NCBI GenBank assembly: GCA_946554335.1
Contig: CAMNSA010000018.1
Coordinates: 1-38,498 of the forward strand
Length of the DNA: 38,498 bases
Source: an uncultured Neglectibacter sp.
GTDB lineage: Bacteria > Bacillota > Clostridia > Oscillospirales > Acutalibacteraceae
Direction of reading: 5' to 3'
The position numbers and the translations under genes are program-made. Of the stretch, positions 3,246-25,370 are shown piece by piece (within the stretch, counting starts at the first letter, position 1; each line of letters opens with the position of its first letter). The notes beneath the pieces are model-generated. The model searched no databases. It saw only the letters and a list, made by a program, of their open reading frames with translations, and was not told the origin of the DNA.

Positions 3246-5219
3246 CTATACCAAATCAATGGGCTTCCCAAACGCCCCGATCAGCACCTTCCCCATACTG
3301 TCCGCATAACTCTTCCGCACCAGCTCCATGGTCTCAATCCCCATCTCCCCGGCAACCCTCTTCATGCCCAGGCCGCCGCCAAAAGCAAAACGGGAGACAT
3401 ATTCCTCCACCGTGACCGTGCCGTCCCATGCAGCCGCCGCGGCCATGCCCTGCCCGCTGATGGAAGCAATGCACCCGCCGGTCCCAATCTCCCCCGTACC
3501 GTTCTCCATCCGCAGATACACATTGAACGTGTTGGTAATGTTCGGCACAAGATTGTCAATAGGATAATACAGAGACAAAATGTGCTTACCGCTCCCCCAG
3601 GTCTCCGTCGGACAGTGCGCCAGAATCTCCGAATCATTAAACTCATAAGCAACATAAGCCACAGCCTTCCCGTCCTCCGTCCAAGTGACCGGAAGCTCCA
3701 CCTCCACAATAACATCCTGCGTACTTCCCCCGGCTCTGGAACTGCCCCCTACACTCCCCTCATCTTCTCCGGCACTGTCCCCGTTTCCTCCGGTTCCAGC
3801 CTTCTCCCCGGCCATGCCGCCGTCTGCACCGCTTCCGCCAAAACCCGCTTCCCCGCCGTCACCGGCCCCAACAGCCTCCCCACTGCCCTCTCCCTCTTCC
3901 GCCGCCGGAATTGGAACCACGATACTCCCGGATGCGCTGGCCGTCCTCTCCGCCTGCACCGCCCTCACGTCCACAACCGCCTGCCCGAAAAACTGCACAT
4001 GGGTCTCTTCCTTCGCCGCAAACTCGATACTGATGATCCGCACATTATCCTCCGCCACCGTATAAGCAGAAGCATTGGTAAACGTATGAATCCCCACCTT
4101 CCCGGCCTCAATCTGATTCAAAAGCCCGGAAATATTCTTATCATTCTTAGACTTCGCCTGGGCCAGCCGCGGGTTCTTCCCCACACATTTCAGGCTCTGC
4201 CTCCCTCCGATCCTGCACTGAAAAGACGTGATACAGGCCATCTGCTCCCCGTCCGCCTGCCCTCCCGAAAAAGTCAGCACGTCCCCCAGATCCAGAGCCG
4301 GGTTCCCTATGGTGCTGGAATCAAAAGGCACATAATTCACCACGGACAGGTCCGCCAGTATATTCCTGCACAGCTGCCTCCTGGTCTCTTCCAGACCAAA
4401 CTGCAGGAGCGGGTTCACCCCCAGGTTCATGGTCAGCCCGTCGTCCGCATCCAGCGCATAATACTCCGCCGTCTGCGTCCGCAGGTTCGTGGAGCTCACC
4501 GCCGTATACCTGGTGATAAAATCCGAAAAACTGCTGGAAAACCTGTGCCTCCCCTGCACCTCCATCACCGGCTCCGCCCCGTACTTCCGAAGCTCCAGCC
4601 TTCCCCTCCGGTTGATACAGAAAAACCCGCCCAGCACCTGCCCCACAAAAAACAGCACGTCCCGATACGTCCCAATATCATTCTCCGGATAAATAGAAAG
4701 CAGCTCCCTCCCGTTGGGCATACCCTCAATCTCCGCCCTCGTGTTCTCCATCTCCACGCCGCAGGCCTTACAGCACAGCTCCAGAAAAGCCCAGGCATTC
4801 CCCACAGACTCAAACCCGTTAAAACTCTTCTCAAACCGCAGCATATAGTCATAGGCTTTCAGTTCCAGACAGTGCGCCGTCCGGTTCGCCTCGCTCACCT
4901 CAAAAATGCCCATGGGCACTTCCTCAAAACTGCCGTCCGCCACCCGCAGATGGTAGGACAGCTCCACCCTCGCCCCGTCCAGCGTATACCGGTCAATCTG
5001 TGAAAACAGCGTAACGCCCATCTCCGCCGCATACACCGTCCCCAATTCAATCTCCGCACTCCCGCAGCACTGGGCGGAAACATACCCGCTCCCCCTCACA
5101 ATATCCTCATACCCGAACGGATACACCGCCCCGCCCTTTGTGGTGATCTTCCCCGTCCAGTAATACCTCCGGGTATTCTCCTGCACCGCCCGCAGGAACG
5201 CCTCGCTCACCGGATACAT
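3246..5219 (-). CDS. Tail hub / tail-associated protein (gp27-44-like baseplate component)
   Basis: 657 aa from ATG 5219 (MYPVSEAFLRAVQ), preceded by GGGAAGGGGG; the longer frame to 5288 runs through a terminator hairpin and is rejected. Residues ~1-390 look like a tail hub: an N-terminal GYVSAQCCGSAEIELGTVYA beta region, a FEVSEANRTAHCLELKAYDY strand, then LGDVLTFSGGQADGEQMACI with RRQL helices. A very Gly/Ala/Glu/Asp-rich linker (~450-520) separates this from a C-terminal domain that resembles a carbohydrate or tip domain (GSGKHILSLYYPIDNLVPNI). It follows the tape-measure region across an accessory insertion and adjoins the tip protein gene. The hub role is inferred from position and fold-like features. 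Confidence 0.7.
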   Translation of the reverse strand: MYPVSEAFLRAVQENTRRYYWTGKITTKGGAVYPFGYEDIVRGSGYVSAQCCGSAEIELGTVYAAEMGVTLFSQIDRYTLDGARVELSYHLRVADGSFEEVPMGIFEVSEANRTAHCLELKAYDYMLRFEKSFNGFESVGNAWAFLELCCKACGVEMENTRAEIEGMPNGRELLSIYPENDIGTYRDVLFFVGQVLGGFFCINRRGRLELRKYGAEPVMEVQGRHRFSSSFSDFITRYTAVSSTNLRTQTAEYYALDADDGLTMNLGVNPLLQFGLEETRRQLCRNILADLSVVNYVPFDSSTIGNPALDLGDVLTFSGGQADGEQMACITSFQCRIGGRQSLKCVGKNPRLAQAKSKNDKNISGLLNQIEAGKVGIHTFTNASAYTVAEDNVRIISIEFAAKEETHVQFFGQAVVDVRAVQAERTASASGSIVVPIPAAEEGEGSGEAVGAGDGGEAGFGGSGADGGMAGEKAGTGGNGDSAGEDEGSVGGSSRAGGSTQDVIVEVELPVTWTEDGKAVAYVAYEFNDSEILAHCPTETWGSGKHILSLYYPIDNLVPNITNTFNVYLRMENGTGEIGTGGCIASISGQGMAAAAAWDGTVTVEEYVSRFAFGGGLGMKRVAGEMGIETMELVRKSYADSMGKVLIGAFGKPIDLV

Positions 5220-22140: not shown

Positions 22141-24783
22141 CTAATTCAGAAAATCAAAATCCCCATCAGGCCCCGCCCCGGAATCCCCGGACAGGCCGCC
22201 TGCCGTATCCCCAAAGTCCTCCCACGCCGTCCCCGGCACAAAGCCATCAGCGCCTTTCCATTCAGCCTCCCGCACGGAATCCCCGAACTCTTCCCACACA
22301 GCCTCCATCTGCGCCAGAAGCTCCCTGCTCTCCGGCAGTGCCATGGCGACCGCATAAGCCACCGTCGCCGTGACCGCATTCCCGGCCTGTTTGTAAAGCT
22401 GTGTCTCCGAATTGACAGCCGCCGCCCGCTCATACAGCTCATCCGGGAACCCCTGCAGGCGGAAACACTCACGGGGAGTCAGCCTCCGTATCTTCCCGCA
22501 CTTCGTCACCGTCCCCATCATGCACCCCGTATCCAGCGTCTGCGAACAGCCCTTTCCAACCCGGCCCCGCCGGGATTCACTCTTCGGATACGACAGGCAC
22601 ACGCCGTCCCCCGGAAAAGCCAGGTCATACCCCTGCTTCGTGCCGTTCCTCACCGGCAGCGCCGTCTCCGCATCCCCGGATGCATCTTCCGGCAGGTACA
22701 CCCCGTGCTGGTCCTGCGCCGTCAGCGTGAACATCGGCTCCCCGGTTTCCTTCATCCGCCTCCCGTTCTGCCGCTTCTCCACCCGGTCCGGCGTCAGCAC
22801 CGCCCTAGCTTCTAATACACTTCCGTCCTTATTTTCTGATACCGTATCCGCAGCCTCCAAAACCCCGGAATTGCCAAAATTCGTAAGCCCGCCATTATAC
22901 TGCGCAATCAGACATTTAGCAACATCCCGCACCTTCGGATGGTTCAGCGTCTGGTCAATAAAAACCTTTCCGCCCTGTCCGCTTTCAGACGTGACCGTGA
23001 GAGCCAGCCCCCTGGCATCATAAATGCGTCCATTCATCCCCTGCCCGCCTGGGTTCACATTCCCCACACAGTACAACCCGGTCTTCGATCCCATTCCCCC
23101 GCCGTTCGCCCCGATACTCACCGAAACCCCGGACGGGTCATACACCCGGTATCCCTGCATCCCGCCTATAACCTCTTTAAGAGCTCCGCCGTCTTCTCCG
23201 GAGACAGATAATATTTCCCGTCCACCTCTGCTTCTAAGAACTGCGATAAGGAATACCCTCTCCCGGTTCTGCGGGACTCCGAAGTCTTTAGAATTAAGCA
23301 CCTGCCACCGCACGTCATACCCTGCCTCGTCCATTTCAGAGAGAACGGCGGCAAAATCGAATCCTGCATTGACTGATAACAGGTTCTTAACGTTCTCAAC
23401 AAGTAGGTATGTGGGCTTATCACCTTCCTCTTTGCCTTTGATGAGGTCAATAATGCTGTAATAGATTCCACTTCTTTTTCCTCTAAGCCCTCTCTGCTTT
23501 CCTGCGATGGAGATATCCTGGCAGTTGTGGGCTGCCAGTCCTCCTGCTGTGTATGAATTGTCATCTTCCACCTCCATGTTGTAGACGTATCCGTCAAACG
23601 GGACCTTCCTGCTGCCCCTGTAACGGCACCAGACATATCCGTCCATGAAAAAAGAGCCGTCCCTTTCAGACCGCCCTTCCTTGAACCTCACCGTATAAAA
23701 ATCATGCTGCCGTACCGTCCTGCCCTCGATTACGCAGGTCTCCGGCATCTTATTTCTGTAAACCGCACAAGGCATACGGTACGCCTTATGCACACAGTCC
23801 CGGATTCCATAAGCAAGCTCCCTGGAAATCGTGGATGCCTGATGATACTTTCCCACAATACACCCTTCCGTCTCAAAATACCCTTCCAGAAACGCCCGCA
23901 GCAGATCCCCCGGCAGATTGAAGACCGCTTCCGTCAGCCGCTTTCCTCCCGCGCCCTTTCCAAACTGCATCAAGAATACCGTCAGCTCTTTATTCGTAAA
24001 ATGCACCTTATAAGCCGTCCGCTCCTTCGCCACGCTGTAACGGAACATTCCGTCCACATGCCTTTTCAGCCGTTCCAGCTTTTCCTCATTGCAGGCAACC
24101 ACCACCCGGTAATTATCAGACGCATTCTTCCTCTTGGTGACACGATACCAGCCGTCACCCATATAACAGCCCACGAACCACCAGAAATCCCGGCTCCCAA
24201 GGTCAAGGCCGTCCAGCCTGTACTCCCTCCCATGCCGCTCATAAGTAATCCCATCCCATTCCGGCAGCTCCGCCTTGTTATTCACCGGAACCGCGATCAG
24301 ATCACCCGCCTCCAGTTCCTGTACGGCCTTCCATTTAGCAGAATCCCCTTCTTTTACCAGAAACGGATGCTCACCGGTCACTTTTAGATTCTCTACGCCG
24401 AAAACGTCCAGCTCATAAATCTCCCCGGCCTTATGCTTCATGGGCCTCACCACCGGGCGGAACCTGTTCTTATGCGTCAATACCCGGTCCCCGGCCCGGA
24501 TATGCTCAATACACTTATATCCCCGGTCCGTCATCACCAGCGTCCCGGCCTCAAAGCAGGGGAACCCAAAGCACCACGCATCCGCATAGGGGATCTCTTC
24601 CGGCGTCAGCTTCGTCACATCCTCCGCCTTCCATTCCCCTTCCGTGTCATACATGGCCTCATAGGAAGCCCTCGCAAACTTATCATACTCACAATAACCA
24701 ACGCATTTATGCCCGGCCCATTCCAGCCCCAGCCGGAACCCGCCGATCCCCGAACAGATATCCAGAAACGTAAGCCTTCCCAT
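22141..24783 (-). CDS. C5-cytosine DNA methyltransferase precursor containing an intein
   Basis: 880-aa precursor from ATG 24783, after GGGGAGGTGG; the frame upstream is a shadow of the adenine methyltransferase gene. Residues 1-75 carry SAM motif I (FLDICSGIGGFRLGLEWAGH) and lead into motif IV CFGFP. A 345-aa intein (76-420) follows, then Cys421 restores GFPCQDISIAGKQRGLRGKR. Motif VI (ENV) and motif VIII (GVPQNRERVFLIA) follow, then a long target-recognition region, then motifs IX-X (TPRECFRLQGFPDELY; YKQAGNAVTATVA). The spliced enzyme would be 535 aa. It would methylate phage DNA, probably against host restriction. It is downstream of MT-A70 and PAPS-reductase-like genes. Confidence 0.95.
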   Translation of the reverse strand: MGRLTFLDICSGIGGFRLGLEWAGHKCVGYCEYDKFARASYEAMYDTEGEWKAEDVTKLTPEEIPYADAWCFGFPCFEAGTLVMTDRGYKCIEHIRAGDRVLTHKNRFRPVVRPMKHKAGEIYELDVFGVENLKVTGEHPFLVKEGDSAKWKAVQELEAGDLIAVPVNNKAELPEWDGITYERHGREYRLDGLDLGSRDFWWFVGCYMGDGWYRVTKRKNASDNYRVVVACNEEKLERLKRHVDGMFRYSVAKERTAYKVHFTNKELTVFLMQFGKGAGGKRLTEAVFNLPGDLLRAFLEGYFETEGCIVGKYHQASTISRELAYGIRDCVHKAYRMPCAVYRNKMPETCVIEGRTVRQHDFYTVRFKEGRSERDGSFFMDGYVWCRYRGSRKVPFDGYVYNMEVEDDNSYTAGGLAAHNCQDISIAGKQRGLRGKRSGIYYSIIDLIKGKEEGDKPTYLLVENVKNLLSVNAGFDFAAVLSEMDEAGYDVRWQVLNSKDFGVPQNRERVFLIAVLRSRGGREILSVSGEDGGALKEVIGGMQGYRVYDPSGVSVSIGANGGGMGSKTGLYCVGNVNPGGQGMNGRIYDARGLALTVTSESGQGGKVFIDQTLNHPKVRDVAKCLIAQYNGGLTNFGNSGVLEAADTVSENKDGSVLEARAVLTPDRVEKRQNGRRMKETGEPMFTLTAQDQHGVYLPEDASGDAETALPVRNGTKQGYDLAFPGDGVCLSYPKSESRRGRVGKGCSQTLDTGCMMGTVTKCGKIRRLTPRECFRLQGFPDELYERAAAVNSETQLYKQAGNAVTATVAYAVAMALPESRELLAQMEAVWEEFGDSVREAEWKGADGFVPGTAWEDFGDTAGGLSGDSGAGPDGDFDFLN
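23524..24558 (-). other. Intein with LAGLIDADG homing endonuclease in the methyltransferase active site
   Basis: 345 codons, numbered from its own Cys1. N-terminal splicing block: CFEAGTLVMTDRGYKCIEHI, RAGDRVLTH; block B TGEH (Thr61, His64). LAGLIDADG motifs: FVGCYMGDGW at ~128-137 and LRAFLEGYFETEGC at ~220-233. C-terminal blocks: GYVYNMEVEDDNSYTAGG then AAHN, with His344, Asn345 and Cys+1 (TGC at 23523-23521). All standard splicing residues are present, so it looks active. The +1 Cys is the expected catalytic Cys of motif IV. Confidence 0.93.
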
Positions 24784-24785
24784 GG

Positions 24786-25370
24786 TCAGTCCACCTCCCC
24801 GTTTCTCTTTCTTCCGTCTCCTTCCGGCTCCAGGACAACGCTGCTCTCCACCTCGTTCCCCCACGCTTCCCAGCCGGGGACACGCTGCCTTGCGAACAGC
24901 TCCACCCTCGGAAGGTCTCCCATCAATTCCACAATCTTCTCCCTCGTCTCGTCCGGCTTCTTGCTGTGCGCTTCCAGCGGAGAGATGATAAACTGGTGGA
25001 CACGGGCAGACCTGCGCCTCGGATGCCCTTTCACTCCCAGCAGGCAGATCTCCGCATTCCCCCTGGTCCAGAACCCCAGCCCGTAAAACCAGCCCGGAGA
25101 CTTCCGGTTCTGTTTCAGCCACACAAAAGCCACTGTCTTATACCGGAACCCCCAGCTTTCCATCACGCGCAGGGCCTCCGGCAACTGCGGGAACGTAACC
25201 CACAGAAACAACGTACAGTCTTCCGCGCAGATACCCGCCACGGGCAGCGCACAGATATCCTCCGTGCCCATCGTCCCGTAATGCTTCTCCGCTCCGCCCT
25301 GCACCCGTTTGTTGTCATACCGCCACGGGGGATCGGCATAGACGATATTATATTTCTGCCCTGTCTCCAT
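24786..25370 (-). CDS. MT-A70 family adenine-specific DNA methyltransferase
   Basis: 194 aa. It begins METGQKYNIVYADPPWRYDN, with the catalytic DPPW at 13-16. A CALPVAGICAEDCTLFLWVT segment, then GFRYKTVAFVWLKQNRKSPG and WTRGNAEICLLGVKG, complete the MT-A70 fold. Homologues methylate N6 of adenine in DNA. The stop lies two bases before the C5 methyltransferase ATG, and the start overlaps the end of the PAPS-reductase-like gene by 23 bases, so the three are one operon. Confidence 0.93.
   Translation of the reverse strand: METGQKYNIVYADPPWRYDNKRVQGGAEKHYGTMGTEDICALPVAGICAEDCTLFLWVTFPQLPEALRVMESWGFRYKTVAFVWLKQNRKSPGWFYGLGFWTRGNAEICLLGVKGHPRRRSARVHQFIISPLEAHSKKPDETREKIVELMGDLPRVELFARQRVPGWEAWGNEVESSVVLEPEGDGRKRNGEVD

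Follow-up and report, generated by a model that had tools for sequence, protein, structure and literature searches.

An intein at the catalytic cysteine of a C5-cytosine DNA methyltransferase on a phage contig from a Neglectibacter genome, and the recurrence of inteins at motif IV

Contig CAMNSA010000018.1 of an uncultured Neglectibacter sp. (the window, meaning the whole stretch of 38,498 nucleotides that was analysed) carries a C5-cytosine DNA methyltransferase gene that is interrupted in frame by an intein. Positions refer to the window, and the features located by them lie on its minus strand. The gene (22141..24783) is read in a frame that is uninterrupted from upstream of the ATG at 24783 down to the stop at 22141, and its translation is a precursor of 880 amino acids, composed of an insert of 345 and exteins totalling 535. 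The DNA_methylase profile matches it at 1.5e-59, which exceeds the Pfam cut-off, and the NCBIfam dcm model (TIGR00675) matches at 1.8e-62; by profile and by its motif IV cysteine the host protein is a C5-cytosine DNA methyltransferase, with activity as predicted from sequence. The N-extein (24559..24783, 75 amino acids) ends in ...DAWCFGFP and aligns with M.HhaI as far as Cys81. The C-extein (22141..23523, 460 amino acids and the stop codon) restarts at CQDISIAGK and, according to the profile and the M.HhaI alignment, holds the remaining methyltransferase, including a long variable target-recognition region. Cys81 of M.HhaI is aligned twice, once with Cys1 of the intein, which ends the N part, and once with the +1 Cys (23521..23523), which opens the C part. 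Cys1 thus occupies the place of the catalytic cysteine, and the true catalytic cysteine of motif IV is the +1 residue. The initial annotation had placed an intein at this point, with the same coordinates and lengths and with the +1 cysteine doubling as the catalytic one, and translation, profiles, boundaries and the M.HhaI alignment agree with it in each respect.

The intein (23524..24558) extends from Cys1 to Asn345, as defined by translation, profiles, an alignment of 71 motif IV inteins, a structure model and matches to solved structures. It begins after GFP with CFEAGTLV... (Cys1 codon 24558-24556) and ends in ...LAAHN (Asn codon 23526-23524), next to which stands the +1 Cys codon (23523-23521). 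The N-terminal Hint part comprises about residues 1-98 (24265..24558, border approximate), is recognised through Hint_2 and PT-HINT matches and the model, and includes splicing block B, Thr-Gly-Glu-His at residues 61-64 (24367..24378). The C-terminal Hint part (23524..23658, start approximate) contains VYNMEVEDDNSY...AAHN and is delimited by the alignment and by the NCBIfam model intein_Cterm (TIGR01443), which exceeds its cut-off. Three Pfam models, Intein_splicing (4e-11), Hint_2 (7.1e-9) and LAGLIDADG_3 (7.8e-6), all exceed their cut-offs, so that the Hint and LAGLIDADG parts first read from the letters are also recognised by profile. Cys1, Thr61, His64 and Asn345 are invariant in the 71 aligned motif IV inteins, and His344 is retained in 65 of them. 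The sequence features of a class 1 intein are present, namely Cys1, a Thr-x-x-His block B, His-Asn followed by Cys, and a predicted Hint fold, and the Hint and LAGLIDADG architecture of the structure model resembles solved inteins over the entire model.

The LAGLIDADG homing-endonuclease region spans about residues 116-300 (23659..24213, borders approximate) and is outlined by LAGLIDADG_3, the model and matches to VMA-type inteins. Motif reading and alignment locate two motifs within it, the first ending in ...CYMGDGWY with the acid Asp135 (24148..24183), the second being FLEGYFETEGCI with Glu231, not Asp, at the acid position (23857..23892). Each motif is thus closed by an acidic residue, and the model places the two LAGLIDADG helices at residues 123-135 and 217-231. 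Chance LAGLIDADG-like strings are ruled out by the profile match together with the structure model. Purifying selection on the nuclease region is indicated by a ratio of nonsynonymous to synonymous change (dN/dS) of 0.10-0.17 in six pairs of four close copies. At the second acid position, 67 of the 71 aligned inteins have Asp and two have Glu. The closest relatives are 16 inteins (L005, L006 and L007 from IMG/VR; L020-L031 and L033 from gut Clostridia/Lachnospiraceae) that share the gene, the site and the splicing residues and are 78-96% identical to the window intein. All 16 have Asp at this position, and among the 17 near copies, including the window, in which a pattern picked out the second motif, Glu is found in the window only; L032 and L102 escaped the pattern and show Asp in the alignment.

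Taken as a whole, the locus is very probably best explained as a class 1 intein that includes a homing endonuclease of the LAGLIDADG type and resides in a prophage C5-cytosine methyltransferase. Boundaries, splicing residues, predicted fold, near-identical inteinless alleles and same-site relatives are all established at the level of sequence, and a class 1 splicing route can be proposed from the residues. After translation of the 880-amino-acid precursor, Cys1 would attack the preceding Pro-Cys bond, the N-extein would be transferred to the +1 Cys, and cyclisation of Asn345 would follow. This would release the 345-amino-acid intein and leave a methyltransferase of 535 amino acids, with a rejoined GFPCQ loop carrying the cysteine that attacks cytosine. 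With its GFPCQ loop divided and its methylating Cys serving as the +1 residue, the precursor very probably has no activity. Homing would involve cleavage of empty motif IV alleles by the endonuclease, followed by repair that copies the intein and a short flank. Since motif IV is highly conserved, a homing target would always be present, and imprecise loss of the intein would kill the enzyme.

Empty alleles of the same gene are common among close relatives. When viral contigs were scanned with a 108-residue piece of the C-extein, the best 80 of 580 relatives comprised 75 empty loci, four with an intein and one without upstream sequence. Three of the empty loci (L199, L201 and L202) share 97-98% identity with the window across the 324 nucleotides downstream of the site, and L202 is uninterrupted across the site (...YADIWCYGFPCQDISIAGKQ...). 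Inteinless homologues with an intact GFPCQ, which the initial annotation had proposed to look for, therefore exist. Across 699 base pairs (bp) of flank, 16 occupied alleles (11 distinct) were compared with these three. The two groups are separated by 18 fixed differences, of which 17 fall at -66 to -1 (24559..24624), one at -220 and none in the 474 bp downstream. A simple binomial value of 6e-17 says no more than that the clustering is not subtle, given that the alleles share ancestry and that the data had been viewed before the interval was picked. Within the 66-bp tract, occupied and empty alleles differ at 21-24 positions per pair (18 listed pairs, three empty by six of the 16 occupied), occupied alleles differ from each other at no more than four (120 pairs), and the three empty pairs differ at 1-10. 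In the first 15 bp downstream, three places set L199 and L202, though not L201, apart from the occupied alleles. This is clean evidence of allele exchange at the intein site, and the tract pattern would fit either gene conversion after the empty site was cut or an occupied allele giving way to an empty one.

The most serious alternative, which is nevertheless rather unlikely, is a recombination mosaic without homing, in which the end of the N-extein was swapped by ordinary exchange among phages, the intein being brought in or lost with it. The neighbourhood is indeed mosaic: at 1114-2274 of its contig L202 has a radical-SAM-like gene (phrog_9298) where the window has an MT-A70 gene (24786-25370), and beyond the swapped neighbour the identity of L202 is 95.8%. 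However, the tract stops exactly at the insertion site within otherwise shared flanks, as expected of repair of a cut at that point, and in the three empty alleles the first 135 bp of the gene, between the tract and the swapped neighbour, return to an identity of 0.89-0.98. The MT-A70/radical-SAM-like swap is an exchange separate from the 66-bp tract.

Inteins at motif IV are carried by many other phages. Same-site scans used an alignment that contains the junction and the patterns ...HNCQ and VYN...V[ED]xD, and are hence biased to the motif IV junction. In viral contigs such a scan gave 80 loci, some of them near-duplicates, of which 79 were readable, 77 had methyltransferase exteins and 76 had motif IV inteins; the corresponding numbers for genome contigs were 80, 79, 41 and 40. 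Gut Clostridia/Lachnospiraceae genomes of another collection contributed 13 loci with 93-96% identity (best 80 of 220). When the intein alone was the query, 153 annotated phage records were matched, many in other genes. Eight loci were picked by hand from 40 of these records, with methyltransferases and unannotated records favoured; six had an intein at motif IV, and in the other two the host proteins were a ribonucleotide reductase and an N4 methylase. The six include one locus with two in-frame stops and one whose enzyme frame is broken past the site. The former (L017; MT835926, an unverified record) has its stops at about 3815-3855 of its own sequence, in the nuclease part of the intein. 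It has intact relatives and may be a pseudogene, a product of faulty assembly or an intein in two pieces. In the latter, the Mannheimia phage locus L013, the methyltransferase frame breaks at about 4520 of that sequence, just past the intein, and continues in the relatives L156 and L170. The site had been called unusual in the initial annotation, a view that these counts, together with some P1-like phages and plasmids, do not uphold. Inteins recur at motif IV in phage C5 methyltransferases, from Lachnospiraceae-type prophages to P1-like phage-plasmids. Spread in near kin was not seen: 98 other relatives gave no full-length intein match and two partial matches of 20-22 bits, and at E 1e-10 none of 397 other genomes of the family was matched by the intein.

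A tree was built from 140 different inteins by a quick method with Shimodaira-Hasegawa-like approximate likelihood-ratio (SH-aLRT) support only. In it, 97 of the 98 motif IV inteins and nine others fall on one side of a branch. Seven site changes are needed on this tree, and the starred branches alone force four. An archaeal methyltransferase from Desulfurococcales (L067) has a motif IV intein outside the main set, which may have invaded this site independently. At locus L048 the intein lies elsewhere in a methyltransferase-like extein, after WENV, which we read as motif VI. At L153 the +1 residue is Ser instead of Cys (HN/SQGFS), so that the spliced enzyme would be without the usual catalytic cysteine. 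Proline precedes the intein in 92 of the 98 different motif IV inteins.

The P1-like phages and plasmids provide a second, distant set of occupied and empty alleles. Their Dmt protein (OP279344, RCS47, Ro157c2YLVW) likewise has an intein immediately before the motif IV Cys of its C5 domain, a junction that was read in OP279344 and five plasmid copies; its inteins are about 28-30% identical to that of the window and, unlike the window enzyme, Dmt has an additional adenine methyltransferase domain. Among 18 phage records that match dmt, five, which represent these three phages, cover at least 80% of the intein-bearing query, as do 126 of 498 plasmid records. In a comparison of six occupied with four empty alleles, the insert is 341 codons long in all six and all frames are open; dmt measures 2019 bp when empty, and when occupied 3042 bp in five alleles and 3288 bp in the sixth, which has 246 bp extra elsewhere. 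Classic P1 was considered as a carrier and rejected. Reference P1 (AF234172/NC_005856) and P7 are shorter, cover 60-66% of the query, are absent from the five Escherichia records matched by the intein and, judged by match length, lack the insert. The P1-like intein records bear on a statement about coli or coliphages that appears in PMC11162368.

Other known inteins are less close in sequence, in site or in both. The DNA-cytosine methyltransferase of Lactobacillus phage Nyseid has the junction GFP/C...HN/CQDIS and a Hint-type intein, as in the window, of 312 amino acids and about 30% identity. The best matches in annotated phages are class III ribonucleotide reductase inteins of Lactococcus phages P1048, AM4, AM5 and 949 (32-33.5%), which differ in host gene and site and, in P1048, the one read, end in Lys-Asn. 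TliVMA and PI-SceI-type inteins with solved structures likewise combine Hint and LAGLIDADG over the whole model, with 15-21% identity and different host proteins. In phage DNA methylases, the mycobacteriophage inteins DNMT-1 and DNMT-2 are described by Kelley et al. (2016; PMC5050341), who note that inteins adjoin conserved motifs and active sites; these methylases are N4/N6 (amino) enzymes, not C5, and their sequence context differs (the Pacc40 gp60 intein is 27% identical to that of the window). An actinophage methylase family with an intein and two further inserts at conserved sites is likewise described in PMC9957025 (2023). Because these two papers report such cases, inteins in phage methylases are a kind already known. 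No description of a C5 methyltransferase interrupted by an intein at its motif IV was found in Creative Commons-licensed PubMed Central, and absence from print is not claimed.

Several observations weigh against the interpretation as a mobile class 1 intein. The NCBIfam intein_Nterm model (TIGR01445) reaches 17.6 bits, under its cut-off of 24.5; this miss is by itself no defining feature, and the Pfam intein model passes. The second LAGLIDADG motif reads ETEG, with Glu at the acid position (codon 23866-23868), and the nuclease of the window copy may be weakened by it. I-DmoI has Glu at its second LAGLIDADG motif. Distances between inteins correlate with those between exteins (Mantel r 0.65, 92 loci), with strong exceptions both ways, and inheritance would therefore be much or partly vertical, with jumps and separate invasions besides. 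Outgroup comparison of the 66-bp tract gives no polarity, so that gain is not told apart from loss, which also favours the recombination mosaic. No long converted tract occurs in the P1 set, where across 831 bp of flank the base at -1 is the one fixed difference between occupied and empty alleles. Finally, splicing may be slow, because in the one intein tested, an engineered Thermococcus kodakarensis RadA intein, Pro belongs to the slow -1 class for N-terminal cleavage, according to PMC11842431.

Two regulatory extensions build on this last point. It is improbable that the motif IV inteins form an old, large and perhaps uncatalogued family which takes the catalytic Cys of the enzyme as its splicing nucleophile, has to splice behind Pro, and through the delay caused by that -1 Pro times phage DNA methylation, so that the occupied allele would persist alongside empty ones. 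Slightly less credible still is a regulated on-switch, in which the methyltransferase stays silent until a redox, temperature or infection-stage signal triggers splicing. The insertion splits the catalytic loop and recruits the catalytic Cys as the +1 residue, and the prevalence of -1 Pro, with the slow RadA class, would suit a delay. Yet the -1 Pro is dictated by motif IV, of which it is a part, and close phages, as the 75 empty loci indicate, do without the intein and need no switch. From the on-switch first proposed, the probable inactivity of the unspliced enzyme is retained, on the grounds of the fold, and regulated splicing is left without support. A reading of the insert as an ordinary structural part of the methyltransferase has nothing in its favour and is practically excluded by the exact empty alleles among the window relatives and in the P1-like set.

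The window is contig C18 of a bacterial assembly of 37 contigs and 2.53 Mb. It encodes terminase, portal, head, tape-measure, helicase, polymerase, exonuclease and holin, with the methyltransferase gene flanked by tailed-phage genes for packaging and of replication type, and it is a prophage or a piece of a phage genome. The upstream neighbour is an MT-A70 family methyltransferase gene (24786..25370; PF05063 3.7e-29, phrog_359). A search of the genome with Pfam Intein_splicing gave no match beyond the window intein. A partial second DNA_methylase match (profile positions 1-56) lies in a 116-amino-acid frame at 13143-13319 of contig C20. The long variable methyltransferase region at 22498-23220 is in part similar to M.HhaI residues 234-268, and like units seem, by eye, to be repeated in it; L005 is without one stretch that is present in the window. 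Modular target recognition in this region is possible.

The element is a genuine intein, precisely placed and well preserved; its claimed novelty of site fails because motif IV is a recurrent intein site. Annotated records that were examined carry plain methyltransferase names and leave the intein unmentioned. Motif IV inteins, nearly all of which follow Pro, could supply Pro-tolerant splicing tools if they are efficient splicers. Near-identical empty and occupied alleles show the trace of an intein moving, or being replaced, among gut phages.
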